Assembly (NCBI RefSeq): GCF_000488215.1
Contig: NZ_KI530712.1
Coordinates: 624,881 to 688,880, forward strand
DNA: 64,000 nt
Direction: 5' to 3'
DNA from: Acinetobacter nectaris CIP 110549
GTDB lineage: Bacteria; Pseudomonadota; Gammaproteobacteria; Pseudomonadales; Moraxellaceae
Under the pieces are notes generated by a model. It did no database searches, had not been told where the DNA came from, and was given only the letters and a program-made list of their open reading frames with translations. This document shows, piece by piece, positions 46,591 through 51,360 of the stretch; the stretch's first letter is position 1, and the number at the start of each line of letters is the position of its first letter. A program made the translations under genes and the position numbers.

Positions 46591-47031
46591 CTACATGACA
46601 GTGCAGTTATTTAAATTTAAGACATTTACACTCACAGTTGACAAACTATTACAAATAACTTTTACAGTAACGCCCCCATCTTGACTGAGATTATAGTCAT
46701 CAGAATCAGCATTTCTATAGTCAATTGCATTTAAAAATATTGGCTTACTTGGGTTATCTGTAGAAGCTTCAAGTGCATACATGTGAGCTGCTTTTTGCTT
46801 ATTAACTAATGTTATACTGCCTTCGTTTGGTGTAATTTTAGTCAGTGTAATACTATTAATTTCAATTCTTTTATCTTTGTATTTTTGCATAAATAGTTCT
46901 TGATTATTATCAAACTCTTGTTGCAAGTTCTCAGCACTACTAAAAGTTTCTAGCTGTTTTGTTTCTTTTGCAAAAGTAAATGATGAAGCTAATGCTACAA
47001 ATGCAATTGTCAATAACTTCTTATTTATCAT
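46591..47031 (-). CDS. predicted secreted protein, 146 aa, possible OB-fold (tRNA_anti-like)
   Basis: It has a clear signal peptide (MINKKLL... cleavage near TFA, residue 21). The mature part has the helix-strand pattern QEFDNNQELFMQKYKDKRIEINS and then alternating strands (GSITLVN, GGVTVKVICN), which resembles the tRNA_anti-like OB-fold family of bacterial periplasmic proteins. Two Cys near the end could pair. It lies with two other secreted proteins in the accessory block between tape measure and baseplate genes. No function can be assigned; the fold call is tentative. Confidence 0.6.
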   Translation of the reverse strand: MINKKLLTIAFVALASSFTFAKETKQLETFSSAENLQQEFDNNQELFMQKYKDKRIEINSITLTKITPNEGSITLVNKQKAAHMYALEASTDNPSKPIFLNAIDYRNADSDDYNLSQDGGVTVKVICNSLSTVSVNVLNLNNCTVM

Positions 47032-47167
47032 GAATAATTACTCAAAAAATATGTATTAAATATAAGCTGCAAAAATAAATGGCGCAAGAGCAGAAACAAC
47101 AAAGTATTGCAAACAGTACTGATCCAAGCGAAACTCTACATATATCGACAACAATTAGGCATAACAA

Positions 47168-47860
47168 CTAATCTCTTTTTAGTCTACTCCCAACTTCTTT
47201 CTCAGTCTTTGATAGACAGTAGCTATAGTTCTTACTGTCTATTAAATCACAATCACTCCCCAAATCGACTTCTGATGCTGTTTTCATAATTGAGGCTAAT
47301 TTTTCATTTGATGCAACAATCTTACTTACTTTATCTAGTGCGAAATCATTTAGATGATCTTGAAAATAATCTACAGAGAACATTCTTGTTGGGCTTTTAA
47401 ACATTGAGCATCTAGCTATTAAATCACCATCTTGTTCAACTACACTTTTACACATTAATGCTATAGGTTTGCTTAAATCTATGTCTTCAGCTTCATTCCT
47501 TGTTAGGCCACTAATGTATAAGTGATTTAAATATCCAACATCAAAAACACCTATAGGATTGCCATAGCTATCTTTTTGAATGCTTGCAAAATTACCAACT
47601 ATTCGCTGATATTTTTGACGGTACATCTTTTCTGATGAAAATGAATTTTTCTGAAAGTTTGCAAAAACTTCTATTGGGGACTCAATACCCGGATCAAGTG
47701 AAATATCTTTCTGAGCAATACCTGACCAATTAAAAAGCGAACTCCCTGATGAGAGCCAAGCCTCCATATCATTCATAAGTAAGAGCTTTTGAGATTGATT
47801 AAAATCAGCATTTGATAGGGTTGGTAAGATAGCTATTAATGCAGTAATTATTTTTCTCAT
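47168..47860 (-). CDS. predicted secreted protein, 230 aa, possible OB-fold domain
   Basis: The start MRKIITALIAILPTLSNA is a signal peptide (cleavage near residue 18). About residues 65-155 follow the same pattern as the 146-aa neighbour: KMYRQKYQRIVGNFASIQKD, GNPIGVFD and then LMCKSV and LIARCSMF, again like tRNA_anti-like OB-fold domains. Four or five Cys suggest disulfides in the periplasm. The C-terminal 75 residues are helical and charged. The start overlaps the 112-aa gene stop by 4 bases (ATGA), so the two are coupled. Function unknown; possibly lysogenic conversion. Confidence 0.6.
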   Translation of the reverse strand: MRKIITALIAILPTLSNADFNQSQKLLLMNDMEAWLSSGSSLFNWSGIAQKDISLDPGIESPIEVFANFQKNSFSSEKMYRQKYQRIVGNFASIQKDSYGNPIGVFDVGYLNHLYISGLTRNEAEDIDLSKPIALMCKSVVEQDGDLIARCSMFKSPTRMFSVDYFQDHLNDFALDKVSKIVASNEKLASIMKTASEVDLGSDCDLIDSKNYSYCLSKTEKEVGSRLKRD

Positions 47861-48195
47861 GTTGTCTTAAAGCATCCAGTTAATTTATTATCATTACTAG
47901 ATGTACAGTAAAAACCATCTTTTTTAAACTCTTTGGCATCCACAGTATTATCAGAATTTGCACCTATAGATAGTGCGCAGTTATCACCAGAACAATCGCT
48001 TTCGACATAAATAGAATCTTTTTTTGATTTTAAAATGTAATAACTACCTCCAGCACCGCCACCATTTTCGATAGTGCACGGTGTTGGCTCACTTCCATTG
48101 AAAGTACATATGCCTTTTTTATTTGGAAAATCATGTGCAAATACATTAGTCCCGCAAAGGAGTAGTGCTAGAAGATAGTATTTCATATTGTTCAC
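47857..48195 (-). CDS. predicted secreted protein, 112 aa
   Basis: A signal peptide (MNNMKYYLLALLLCGTNVFA) is followed by a mature domain of about 92 residues with six Cys (GICTFNG, TPCTIEN, SDCSGDNC, YCTSS, GCFKTT), which suggests three disulfides. A Gly-rich hinge (ENGGGAGGSYYI) is present. No family is recognised. It starts one base downstream of the tape measure stop and is coupled to the 230-aa secreted protein, so it is the first member of the accessory block. Confidence 0.62.
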   Translation of the reverse strand: MNNMKYYLLALLLCGTNVFAHDFPNKKGICTFNGSEPTPCTIENGGGAGGSYYILKSKKDSIYVESDCSGDNCALSIGANSDNTVDAKEFKKDGFYCTSSNDNKLTGCFKTT

Positions 48196-48196
48196 C

Positions 48197-50170
48197 TTAA
48201 GCCATTACGCCCCTAGTATTTCGTGCTAGAAATATCTTGGCATTATCTTGGCTTCTCTTTACAGCATTAGCAGACTCTTGTGGATCTTTAGCGCCATTCA
48301 CTGTCATTGTTGTATTGTATTCTTGATGAATAGTAACATTAGATGCAAATGATTTAGTAGAGTTTATTTGTGACTTATTAGGATTACCTCTTGGTGGAGC
48401 AAAACTATTTATTTGCGGACTGCCAATACCAAAGTTGGGCTTGGAGAAGTAACTTCTTTGATGAGCCTTAAAGGATGGATTCTGCACCATTTCCCCTTTG
48501 GTAATTATACCATCGTGATTTGAGTCCCAAACTTTGTTTAAATCATATGCTGCTGTCGCTTTTTTATACCCCCAACCTGTAACAGCACCATAAACATCTC
48601 CAACAGAGTATGATCCACCCTCTTTGAATCCTCTCTCCTTATAATACCGCTCGACATATTTCATTTGTTCAGCAAAAGATAATGATGAGAATTGATCACG
48701 AGTCATGCCATAGTACTTATTTTTCACGCCACCAATACCTTTCATAAATTGGATTAACCCTGTAGCCGATGACTTTTTGTTTTTTGCACTAGGACTGAAT
48801 GTTCCACCTGTTTCAAATGAAATTACCGCAGCTAGATCATTTGGATCAACACCTATTCTTTTCGCTGTTTCCTGAATTACTTTCGCCTTTTCATTGGTAA
48901 AGTTTTTACTTGTGTAATTTTGACTATATTGGGTTGCAGCACCTTTCACCCCACCAACCGCAGCATGAGCAGTACCTCTTGTCCAGTTTATAAAATCACG
49001 TGCTAAATGAACTGTGCCGTCCTTTATATCCTTGAGTGTACCTTTTGGGTCATGTACAAGCTTTTGAACAAACTCAATTGCCTTACCAGTCAGACTGGAA
49101 ATCAAATCCATAAAATCTTTAATTTTTTGGGTTACCCAATCAATCTCTTTTGTCCATTGAGACCAATCAAGAAAAGACTTTCCGCCCTCTTTCCATGTTT
49201 TGTAATCATCATAGAGTGCAAGGATTCCTGCAGCTAAAGCAGCAATAATACCGAGTGGTGTGGCAAGGAAGGCAACCCGCAATAAACCAAGAAGGCGAAT
49301 AAAGAATTTCAATGGTGCTATGAACAGAAGGAACAAGCCAAATGCTCTTGCCACACTACTGAATACTGTAGCCAGTAGCGCAAACCGAAGACCAATCACC
49401 AAACCTTCTTTAATTTTAGGATTCATCTGACTAAAGGCATGTACCCCCATAAGAACAAGGTGATTCAAACCTTTAAGCACTGGAATAAGCGCCTTACCGA
49501 CCTGCATAACAATGACTTGAAACCCTGTCTTAGTAATCATAGACAAATCACGGTATTCACTCATGAAATCGTTACCAGACTTCACAAGTTTGTCATTCAT
49601 ACCAAGTTCTTTTTGAATCTTTTGGTACTTCTCCATATTGCCGATGAATTTATCATCACGCATGGCTAAAAGTGTTTTTTGATCTATTCCCAAAGAATTT
49701 GCATAGGCATTAGCTTGATATGACGGCATTTTAGCAAGGGTTGTGCTTAGGTCTTTCATGACTTCAACACGATCTCTCAATGCACCATTTGAGTCCTTGG
49801 TTTTTACACCAAGACTATTAAGCATTCCCTCATATCCGGGAGAGTTACGCATTTTCTCAGCAAGGCTTTCTAAAGTGCCTATCGCGTCCTCTGCACTACC
49901 ACCCATTTGAGAAATAGCATTACCGTACGCATTAATGTTTTCAGCACTTGCACCTATACGTTTTGATGAGAAGTAGAGTTTATCGAGTTCACTTGCCGTT
50001 TGACGGACTGCGAGAACAGCACCAACAGCAAGCGCACCTAAAGCCATATTGAGGGATTTAGCTTTAAGCTCAACACCCTGTAATGCTCCTTGCATCTTCG
50101 CAAGGCCTGCATTGTCTGTTTTGAATCCCAATGCAACGAGGAAGTCTTTAATTGTAGCTGCTTGTGCCAT
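48197..50170 (-). CDS. tail tape measure protein with lytic transglycosylase domain
   Basis: This protein sets tail length and helps DNA entry. I chose the start at 50170 (MAQAATIKD) because the longer frame's GTG lies inside a terminator stem. This gives 657 residues. The first 260 residues are helical with a tape-measure pattern (GASAENINAYGNAIS, GMLNSLG). Several hydrophobic segments follow (about 255-330). The C-terminal part carries an SLT-like muramidase domain: DLAAVISFETGGTFSP, ATGLIQFM and the Tyr-rich KYVERYYKERG, with the catalytic Glu in FETGG. The usual helical repeats are moderate, so the tail is probably short to medium. Confidence 0.9.
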   Translation of the reverse strand: MAQAATIKDFLVALGFKTDNAGLAKMQGALQGVELKAKSLNMALGALAVGAVLAVRQTASELDKLYFSSKRIGASAENINAYGNAISQMGGSAEDAIGTLESLAEKMRNSPGYEGMLNSLGVKTKDSNGALRDRVEVMKDLSTTLAKMPSYQANAYANSLGIDQKTLLAMRDDKFIGNMEKYQKIQKELGMNDKLVKSGNDFMSEYRDLSMITKTGFQVIVMQVGKALIPVLKGLNHLVLMGVHAFSQMNPKIKEGLVIGLRFALLATVFSSVARAFGLFLLFIAPLKFFIRLLGLLRVAFLATPLGIIAALAAGILALYDDYKTWKEGGKSFLDWSQWTKEIDWVTQKIKDFMDLISSLTGKAIEFVQKLVHDPKGTLKDIKDGTVHLARDFINWTRGTAHAAVGGVKGAATQYSQNYTSKNFTNEKAKVIQETAKRIGVDPNDLAAVISFETGGTFSPSAKNKKSSATGLIQFMKGIGGVKNKYYGMTRDQFSSLSFAEQMKYVERYYKERGFKEGGSYSVGDVYGAVTGWGYKKATAAYDLNKVWDSNHDGIITKGEMVQNPSFKAHQRSYFSKPNFGIGSPQINSFAPPRGNPNKSQINSTKSFASNVTIHQEYNTTMTVNGAKDPQESANAVKRSQDNAKIFLARNTRGVMA

Positions 50171-50190
50171 ATCTATCGCCCGTAAAAAAA

Positions 50191-50204
50191 CCACCCGAAG
50201 GTGG
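50191..50204 (-). terminator. UUCG-type tetraloop hairpin before the tape measure gene
   Basis: On the reverse strand CCACC-TTCG-GGTGG is followed by seven T; UUCG loops are especially stable. It sits between the chaperone frames and the tape measure start. The same hairpin sequence recurs at 62041-62054. Confidence 0.72.
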
Positions 50205-50212
50205 TCGTCAAA

Positions 50213-50395
50213 CTACTTGTTCGCTGCTTCTCTCTCCCTTGCTTTTTCAACAAGGTATTCATTGTCAGCAACAACATCTAAAGCATCATTCATTAATGAA
50301 ATATCATGTAAATCGATAGTTCCATCTTTTAATGACTCAAACTTACACATGCCTTTCATGACCGGTCTTAATAACCAATCTTCACCGTCAGGCAA
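50213..50395 (-). CDS. DUF6889-like tail assembly chaperone extension (-1 frame)
   Basis: This frame has 60 residues if it starts at the weak TTG at 50395. It contains the family-like phrase WLLRPVMKGMCKFESLKDGTIDL followed by MNDALDVVADN. No normal ribosome-binding site precedes it. The frame is open upstream in the -1 phase back to the AAATTTT heptamer near the end of the preceding gene, so it is probably made as the C-terminal half of a fusion of about 232 residues, as with lambda gpGT. It lies between the chaperone gene and the tape measure gene, the standard place. Confidence 0.78.
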   Translation of the reverse strand: MPDGEDWLLRPVMKGMCKFESLKDGTIDLHDISLMNDALDVVADNEYLVEKAREREAANK

Positions 50396-50406
50396 GCTTT
50401 TATAAT

Positions 50407-50910
50407 TTACGTGGACTGCTCCTGCAAAGCTCTCGCCTTGGTAAACAGCCCTTGAATAAAATTTCCCATGCTGTCACGAATTACCGCAACAACGAGTGCA
50501 AGCATCTGCCCCAACTCCAAATCATCAAACATGATTGTATTGTTTTGACAAACCTTTGCACCATTTCGAGTGCAAACTGATAAACACTTGTGAATCACAT
50601 AGTCCACATCTTCTTGAGGAAGCTCGGCAAATGATTTTGTGAGTGGAGATAGTGCACCTGATAAACCATTTAGGGATTTGAGATCAACTTTGTTAAGCAA
50701 GTCATCAATGTTATTAATATCAAGCTTTTCAATATCTAGCTCTTCATCAATTTTCTTTAGTGTTTTAACCAAACCACCATGCATAATTTCAGAAATCACA
50801 GGAATGATATGCGGTGTCATCGGTGATATTTTTCTTGATACGTGTAGTTGATCAAATGCATTTAGCTTTTGAATCGCGTACATTTGTCCGCCAATTTCTA
50901 AAGTCATCAT
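50407..50910 (-). CDS. tail assembly chaperone, 167 aa
   Basis: This is the counterpart of lambda gpG: a helical protein of 167 residues coded between the tail tube and the tape measure, with an acidic middle (DEELDIEKLDINNIDD) and a C-terminal helix ending in FIQGLFTKARALQEQST. It would coat the tape measure during tail assembly. Near the 3' end the codons GGA AAT TTT form the in-phase heptamer A AAT TTT, so a fraction of ribosomes may shift -1 into the next frame. It starts 6 bases after the tube gene. Confidence 0.8.
   Translation of the reverse strand: MMTLEIGGQMYAIQKLNAFDQLHVSRKISPMTPHIIPVISEIMHGGLVKTLKKIDEELDIEKLDINNIDDLLNKVDLKSLNGLSGALSPLTKSFAELPQEDVDYVIHKCLSVCTRNGAKVCQNNTIMFDDLELGQMLALVVAVIRDSMGNFIQGLFTKARALQEQST
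50458..50464 (-). promoter_or_regulatory. candidate -1 ribosomal frameshift heptamer AAATTTT
   Basis: On the reverse strand the sequence A AAT TTT is in phase X XXY YYZ with the chaperone frame (codons GGA AAT TTT). The -1 frame is open from this point to the stop at 50213, with no stop codon between, and the downstream frame lacks a credible start. Confidence 0.72.
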
Positions 50911-50916
50911 ATTTAA

Positions 50917-51360
50917 TTACTCGTATGTACCCAATTTCATATCAATTTTGATTGCATCAAACACCCAGTCAACTGTTGCACCATCTTCTGCTGCGTTGTA
51001 ATCAGGTGCTTTTTGAAAAGCAAGCTTGGTGCCTGTGACGTTATCGCCTGAAGCATCGTTGTTTAAAGTAAAATTATTCTTTCCCCATTTTTTAGAACTT
51101 GCCGACTGTGTGTTATACAAATTCATCAGTTTGGCATTTGCAGGAGATGTTTTTAAAAGACGTACTGTAATTGTCCCAGACTTACTACAGTGTAGAGAGT
51201 GCATCCCTTCGCCATCTGCACCAGTTGTCATCGTGTTTTTGTTTTCTGACATGGAAATGGTGATACCTTCTTTTGCAATCGCAGCACCATAACCCAAGTC
51301 AATCGAACCATCATCGCTAACCAATGTGGCATGTGTGTCCATAAAAGACCAAGTTGACAT
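50917..51360 (-). CDS. DUF3277 family tail tube protein
   Basis: A 147-residue protein of the DUF3277 family, the tail tube of this phage type. Its pattern is present: SFMDTHATLVSDDGS, then IDLGYGAAIAKEGITIS, ENKNTMTTGADGEGMHSLHCSKSGT and LKTSPANAKLMNLYN. It follows the sheath gene by about 10 bases and precedes the tail chaperones, as in other DUF3383/DUF3277 phages. A ribosome-binding site GGAGAAAA lies before the ATG. Confidence 0.87.
   Translation of the reverse strand: MSTWSFMDTHATLVSDDGSIDLGYGAAIAKEGITISMSENKNTMTTGADGEGMHSLHCSKSGTITVRLLKTSPANAKLMNLYNTQSASSKKWGKNNFTLNNDASGDNVTGTKLAFQKAPDYNAAEDGATVDWVFDAIKIDMKLGTYE

Follow-up and report, generated by a model that had tools for sequence, protein, structure and literature searches.

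Organization of the tail chaperone locus

The window, by which we mean the whole stretch of 64,000 nucleotides that was analysed, contains the contractile-tail module of a prophage, in which a gene for a tail assembly chaperone lies between the genes for the tail tube protein and the tape measure protein (Table 1). This gene order, which is of the G/GT type and had been proposed in the initial annotation, was borne out by matches of the upstream neighbour to KPP10_Orf10 and the tube protein of Pam3, and of the downstream neighbour to the tape measure family phrog_2276 (1.1e-68). The downstream gene also matched phrog_3824 (3.1e-149), for which no function is given, and two Pfam families, PhageMin_Tail (1.3e-5) and SLT (0.0015), each below its own cut-off. 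Directly downstream of it, and still inside the tail module, three small ORFs at 46591-48195 on the reverse strand have hydrophobic N-termini resembling signal peptides and look like morons.

The frame 0 product of the chaperone gene matched the Pfam family Phage_TAC_15 (PF21822; 2.3e-25, 90 bits against a cut-off of 22) and phrog_1688, annotated as tail assembly chaperone (3.1e-36). A second frame overlaps its distal end in the -1 register. The last -1 stop before the overlap is a TGA at 50476-50474, from where the frame is open to its terminal TAG; its translation begins KFYSRAVYQGESFAGAVHV and continues, and its distal part matched DUF6889 (PF21829; 1.6e-18) and phrog_4364 (9.2e-23). AlphaFold models of the two products had pLDDT values of 71 (chaperone) and 82.5 (second frame). 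Neither model had a match in the PDB at E 0.001 or better (best E 0.56 for the chaperone and 8.2 for the second frame), VIA-align gave Z of 2.5 at most for the chaperone model, and with a profile built from the chaperone alignment no PDB sequence scored below E 0.06.

Table 1. Features of the tail chaperone locus (positions in the window)
Feature	Position	Strand	Remarks
Tail tube protein gene, upstream neighbour	50917..51360	(-)	Pfam KPP10_Orf10 1.8e-50; Pam3 tube protein (PDB) 4.1e-8
Tail assembly chaperone gene, frame 0; putative G-like short form, 167 aa	50407..50910	(-)	Pfam Phage_TAC_15 and phrog_1688
-1 frame with DUF6889, putative T-like extension	50213..50473	(-)	Stop TAG 50215-50213; Pfam and phrog_4364
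Slippery heptamer G GGA AAT, overlapping A AAT TTT	50461..50467	(-)	In phase
Slippery heptamer A AAT TTT, probable main shift site	50458..50464	(-)	X XXY YYZ phase
Spacer ATTCAA, 6 nt, heptamer to stem	50452..50457	(-)	
Stem 5' arm GGGCTGTTT	50443..50451	(-)	Conserved core GGGCTG
Stem 3' arm GAGCAGTCC	50413..50421	(-)	Conserved core CAGTCC
Frame 0 stop TAA	50407..50409	(-)	
Tape measure gene with SLT-like domain, downstream neighbour	48197..50194	(-)	ATG probably 50171

Within the overlap of the two frames lies the heptamer A AAT TTT, in the X XXY YYZ phase of a -1 frameshift signal, as the initial annotation had described it. Its further statements, that the -1 frame runs without a stop from the heptamer into the DUF6889 frame and that the fusion would have about 232 residues, also proved correct: the open stretch is 83 codons long and, by the coordinates, 151 codons of frame 0 would be joined to 81 codons of the -1 frame, giving 232 residues. 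Two features went beyond that description, namely the overlapping heptamer G GGA AAT and a downstream stem-loop with compensatory changes.

As a check on chance occurrence, we searched 12 genes of the window (2959 codons), which contained 17 in-phase heptamers. The -1 frame was open for 83-84 codons after the two at the chaperone site and for 2-40 codons after the other 15. Overall, an open -1 frame of at least 83 codons followed 0.44% of the codon positions in these genes, the median being 6 codons.

A terminator-like hairpin (GACCACC TTCG GGTGGTT followed by a T run, 50206-50184 on the reverse strand) lies in the gap that separates the second frame from the start of the tape measure gene. 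The region contains four terminator-like sites against a mean of 4.3 in shuffled sequences, i.e. they are not enriched, and some terminator-like hairpin of varying sequence was present at the homologous gap in 15 of 67 loci.

Conservation of the probable shift site

Among 50,697 phage records searched at the protein level, 36 contained the chaperone and 38 the second frame; 20 of the listed phage places were taken for comparison. A scan of IMG/VR gave at least 600 candidate stretches; 560 of them encoded a relative, and from these we retained the 80 best. DUF6889 was present in 7 of the 199 genomes searched from the host family, including the window's own, and in 2 of 369 genomes from the class, one being the window's own and the other having a match below the curated cut-off. 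The comparison set comprised 105 loci with both frames, the window counted in. Left out of all counts were four copies of the window locus (L001, L002, L023 and L106), L019, for which tblastn gave no match to the chaperone frame, and L110, a later addition. For counting we used 68 nonredundant loci with at most 95% identity over 150 nt; this set was fixed before the position of the site in L092 was corrected, and the corrected L092 still has no heptamer. As the loci are related by descent, the counts given below overstate their independence.

The second frame was in the -1 register in all 105 loci. Over the 72 nt past the site, the -1 frame was open in 68/68 nonredundant loci and the +1 frame in 15; over the 72 nt ahead of it, the -1 frame was open in 13. 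An X XXY YYZ heptamer was present at the homologous codon in 63/68 loci and in 30 of 33 clusters formed at 75% identity. The most common heptamer, A AAT TTT, was found in 48 loci, of which 22 also had G GGA AAT, 10 had both G GGA AAT and T TTT TTG, and 16, phage MD-2021a (L005) among them, had A AAT TTT alone. Another 13 loci contained C CCT TTT, so that one or the other of these two was present in 61/68, and single loci had T TTT TTT (1/68) or G GGA AAT as the sole heptamer (Bordetella phage IFTN9, L008). Examining in-phase heptamers by codon offset, we counted 61/68 loci at the site, 35 and 11 at its two overlapping neighbours and 4 at two codons upstream, with 0 or 1 of 68 at the remaining 38 of the 42 offsets.

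The initial annotation had suggested comparing the heptamer among homologous phages and had taken its loss in close relatives that keep both frames as evidence against frameshifting. Loss with retention of both frames was confined to five loci (L017, L080, L087, L092 and L095), all of them distant (24-38% chaperone identity) and all retaining T TTT at the site, a tetramer found there in 67/68 loci overall.

The codons at the site were invariant: Asn was encoded by AAT in 49/49 cases, Pro by CCT in 15/15 and Phe by TTT in 67/67. The mean background shares of the codons used were 0.56 for AAT and 0.48 for TTT, and their fixation in AT-rich loci is no great surprise, since they are common codons there. 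In 13 of the 15 loci of the Pro type, however, TTT made up only 3-41% of the Phe codons of the same locus. Fixation of the codons at the site exceeds what background usage would give, and GC-rich loci show this best. One codon earlier, the wobble base follows the codon that comes next, being A before AAT in 49/49 loci and C before CCT in 13/15, a match that is demanded by an X XXY YYZ site and not by the frame 0 protein.

Right after the site, the -1 frame encodes the motif F[YF]xR in 64/68 loci, and F2, Y3 and R5 showed no variation among 39 aligned second frames out of the 45 from IMG/VR and the window. The last T of the site may also be kept by the aromatic residue that comes next in the -1 frame. 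Frame 0 overlaps the motif, so its conservation may be partly derived from frame 0.

Two of the loci left out of the counts were inspected individually. In L019 (Caudoviricetes ctfzr933), the very divergent chaperone gene contains an in-phase T TTT TTT at 1504-1510, and the -1 frame opens only at the site, which suggests that the arrangement extends beyond the loci compared. L110 comes from a different family within the class; its region has a frame of 194 aa and, in another frame, a part with weak similarity to DUF6889 (22.3 bits, below the cut-off).

A stem-loop downstream of the heptamer

In the window, a spacer of 6 nt separates the heptamer from an outer stem formed by 50451-50443 and 50421-50413. 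The 50 nt following the heptamer folded with -20.4 kcal/mol (z -4.1), and the corresponding folds in the 68 loci had a mean z of -1.74, with 47% of them below -2. Extending the stretch to 70, 80 and 100 nt gave z values of -1.5, -1.5 and -3.4 in the window and means of -0.84, -0.84 and -1.80 for the 68 loci.

For the analysis of covariation, loci were grouped by stem, by hand and after viewing the single folds, into 30 of Acinetobacter type, two sets of 11 of Burkholderia/alpha type and 11 of enteric type, which includes Providencia and Elizabethkingia phages; L008, L017, L076, L077 and L084 were left ungrouped. In the Acinetobacter-type alignment (30 loci, 27 distinct rows), 93.4% of the cells were paired, compared with 86.3% in shuffled and 29-54% in slid alignments. 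Five of the nine pairs showed changes on both sides, a number reached in 1 of 500 shuffles, and the cells with both-side changes numbered 21 against 6.1 in shuffles (0/500 as high). RNAalifold, unaided, recovered a 6-bp core with compensatory changes in four of the six pairs.

In the loci of Burkholderia and alpha type the 5' arm is the same, and its partner is displaced to other registers. When 23 of these loci were folded as a single alignment, no consensus pairs emerged, because the 3' arm occupies two registers; after division in two, 93.8% and 85.2% of the cells paired, with weak covariation in both parts. The enteric-type consensus fold contained only three weak pairs.

We also applied the rule that a stimulatory hairpin starts 4-10 nt past the site (PMC4066793), using the position and not the energy part of the rule; the hairpin of the window lies within this interval. 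Among non-enteric loci, 53/57 had a stem of at least 6 bp starting in it, whereas 24 other offsets gave 18.1 on average and 26.5 at most; among enteric-type loci the count was 0/11. The enteric-type loci carry three overlapping heptamers in 10/11 cases and T TTT TTT in the remaining one. An upstream Shine-Dalgarno stimulator was detected in 6/68 loci and is absent from the window; being an optional feature of frameshift signals, it is not decisive for membership.

Probable frameshifting, alternative explanations and related systems

We consider it very probable that a programmed -1 ribosomal frameshift produces the fusion, so that two tail assembly chaperones would be made from one gene. This was also the reading of the initial annotation, and it is supported by the constant phase of the second frame in all 105 loci, by the heptamers and by the covarying stem. 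The short form of 167 aa would come from the majority of ribosomes, which read frame 0 to its stop at 50407. A minority would be stalled by the stem-loop 6 nt downstream while AAT is occupied by Asn-tRNA and TTT by Phe-tRNA, slip back by one base to AAA TTT, and translate the -1 frame as far as 50213, yielding a 232-aa form with DUF6889 in its last 81 residues.

The sequence itself shows the two frames, their phase, the heptamer, the stem and the conservation; the shift, its rate, the choice of A AAT TTT over G GGA AAT as main site and the binding partner of the extension are inferred. In lambda, gpG and gpGT are made at about 30:1, neither of them is part of the virion, and both bind the tape measure protein, the tube subunit being bound by the T part (PMC5009743). 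By analogy, the shared part of the two forms may coat the tape measure protein and the extension may recruit tube subunits, roles that are predicted from gene order and family.

In a variant of this explanation, the shift is real and takes place mainly on G GGA AAT (50467-50461), which we regard as unlikely. That heptamer is in phase, the -1 frame is open there and it is the only one available in phage IFTN9. The slippery motif of lambda is G GGA AAG, to which G GGA AAT is closer than the A AAT TTT that it overlaps here. It occurs in 33/68 loci, however, against 48 for A AAT TTT, which stands without it in 16. The efficient heptamers of E. coli include the classes V_VV.A_AA.R and H_HH.U_UU.Y, and U_UU.Y tetramers shift given a strong stimulator (Sharma et al. 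2014, PMC4066793). The class H_HH.U_UU.Y covers A AAT TTT, C CCT TTT and T TTT TTT, whereas G_GG.A_AA.U falls outside V_VV.A_AA.R; U_UUU would still be available in the five loci that lack a full heptamer. On the assumption that the host behaves like E. coli, these classes and the conservation counts favour A AAT TTT as the main site in the window. Mass spectrometry cannot tell the two heptamers apart, because slippage of both tRNAs would give the identical residues GNFYSR in either case.

Improbable, in our view, is that the DUF6889 frame encodes a separate small protein, translated from TTG 50395 or an internal ATG and perhaps coupled to the chaperone stop. The frame has a CDS of its own in the annotation of several records, and 52/68 loci have some start codon that leaves at least 45 residues; in 16/68, on the other hand, there is no such start, and 36/68 are without an ATG. 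The initial annotation had credited the frame in the window with only a TTG and no ribosome-binding site, of which the second part held, there being no Shine-Dalgarno core, but the first did not, as two in-frame ATGs lie further in, within the DUF6889 part. A Shine-Dalgarno core of at least 4 bases accompanies a second-frame start in only 10/68 loci, although the measure is weak, given that the chaperone's own start reaches it in just 35/68 (26 with 4 and 9 with 5 bases). Efficient independent initiation, which had been named as evidence against a shift, is thus poorly supported. In the window, moreover, the F[YF]xR motif lies upstream of the first start, even if part of its conservation may stem from frame 0, and a separate protein would leave the fixed codons of the heptamer unexplained.

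Joining of the frames by transcriptional rather than ribosomal slippage could yield a related fusion, and we consider it highly improbable: the longest run at the site in the window is of four T, whereas the runs named for such slippage are of more than 7 A or more than 8 T (PMC3711429), and neither the codon phase nor the stem would be explained. A sequencing error or a decayed gene, which a single window alone could not rule out, is refuted by the identical -1 arrangement in 105/105 loci (68 nonredundant) from separate records.

Frameshifted tail chaperones as a kind are textbook knowledge from lambda G/GT and many other tailed phages. In lambda, as here, the chaperone gene precedes the tape measure gene and gives short and long forms with a common N-terminal part (PMC5009743). 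Unlike lambda, the present locus belongs to a contractile-tail module, has a downstream stem-loop and encodes proteins of other families, Phage_TAC_15 and DUF6889. Closer relatives are Burkholderia phage Magia and Klebsiella phage Mulock, which have homologous chaperones (33.5% and 33.7% identity in tblastn), the DUF6889 frame in the -1 register and GenBank annotations reading 'tape measure chaperone frameshift product'. The site is C CCT TTT in Magia and G GGA AAT TTT TTG, without such a stem, in Mulock. Identification of a programmed translational frameshift is stated in the announcement of Magia (PMC7883833), and a search for the words 'frameshift' and 'chaperone' in the Mulock paper was negative for both.

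For the myophage chaperones of Pakpunavirus phage Adele and TAC-N/TAC-NC of Andersonviridae, a -1 shift has been inferred from open frames and a T-rich motif that are both conserved (PMC12846349, 2025). These belong to a different phage group with the motif GTTTTT, and stem covariation does not appear in the part of that report consulted (PMC12846349). A -1 fusion of tail chaperones has also been proposed for gp12/gp13 of the Acinetobacter siphophage Loki, where the motif AAAAAAC stands beside the stop codon (PMC5313236); we liken it to the present case by its description and not by protein comparison. For KS10, a Mu-like phage of Burkholderia, in contrast, the consulted part of the report records that no shift site was found in its chaperone gene (PMC2628397). 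We found no paper in the open literature naming Phage_TAC_15, DUF6889, PF21822 or PF21829, although an earlier report on the family could have escaped our notice. To this the present analysis adds the stem-loop, the finding that the heptamers are interchangeable, and an interpretation of DUF6889 as the probable frameshift-encoded end of the chaperone.

It is possible, though we hold it with some doubt, that a single modular shift cassette is common to the entire Phage_TAC_15/DUF6889 family, its parts having been swapped without loss of function. The core U_UUU would be near-universal and the P-site triplet exchangeable among AAA, CCC and UUU, with the preceding wobble base following. Many lineages would use a stem 6 nt downstream, the enteric type would have a longer run of overlapping heptamers instead, and a few members (5/68) would have lost re-pairing in the P site and would shift by slippage of the A-site tRNA-Phe alone. 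Natural exchanges of slippery codons and of stimulators within the family could serve to study the rules of frameshifting in bacteria beyond E. coli.

DUF6889 is listed as a family of unknown function and can now be read as the probable frameshift-encoded end of a tail chaperone. Records in which it is entered as a separate gene or under another function, or is missing, could be corrected accordingly. Acinetobacter phage AbTJ (L007), although described as podovirus-like (PMC7077233), carries this chaperone of long-tailed phages with the frameshift site and a large gene at the tape measure position. In two Klebsiella prophage records (L021 and L022, 1962-2114), the DUF6889 frame is labelled 'NTP pyrophosphohydrolase', which is probably a misannotation.
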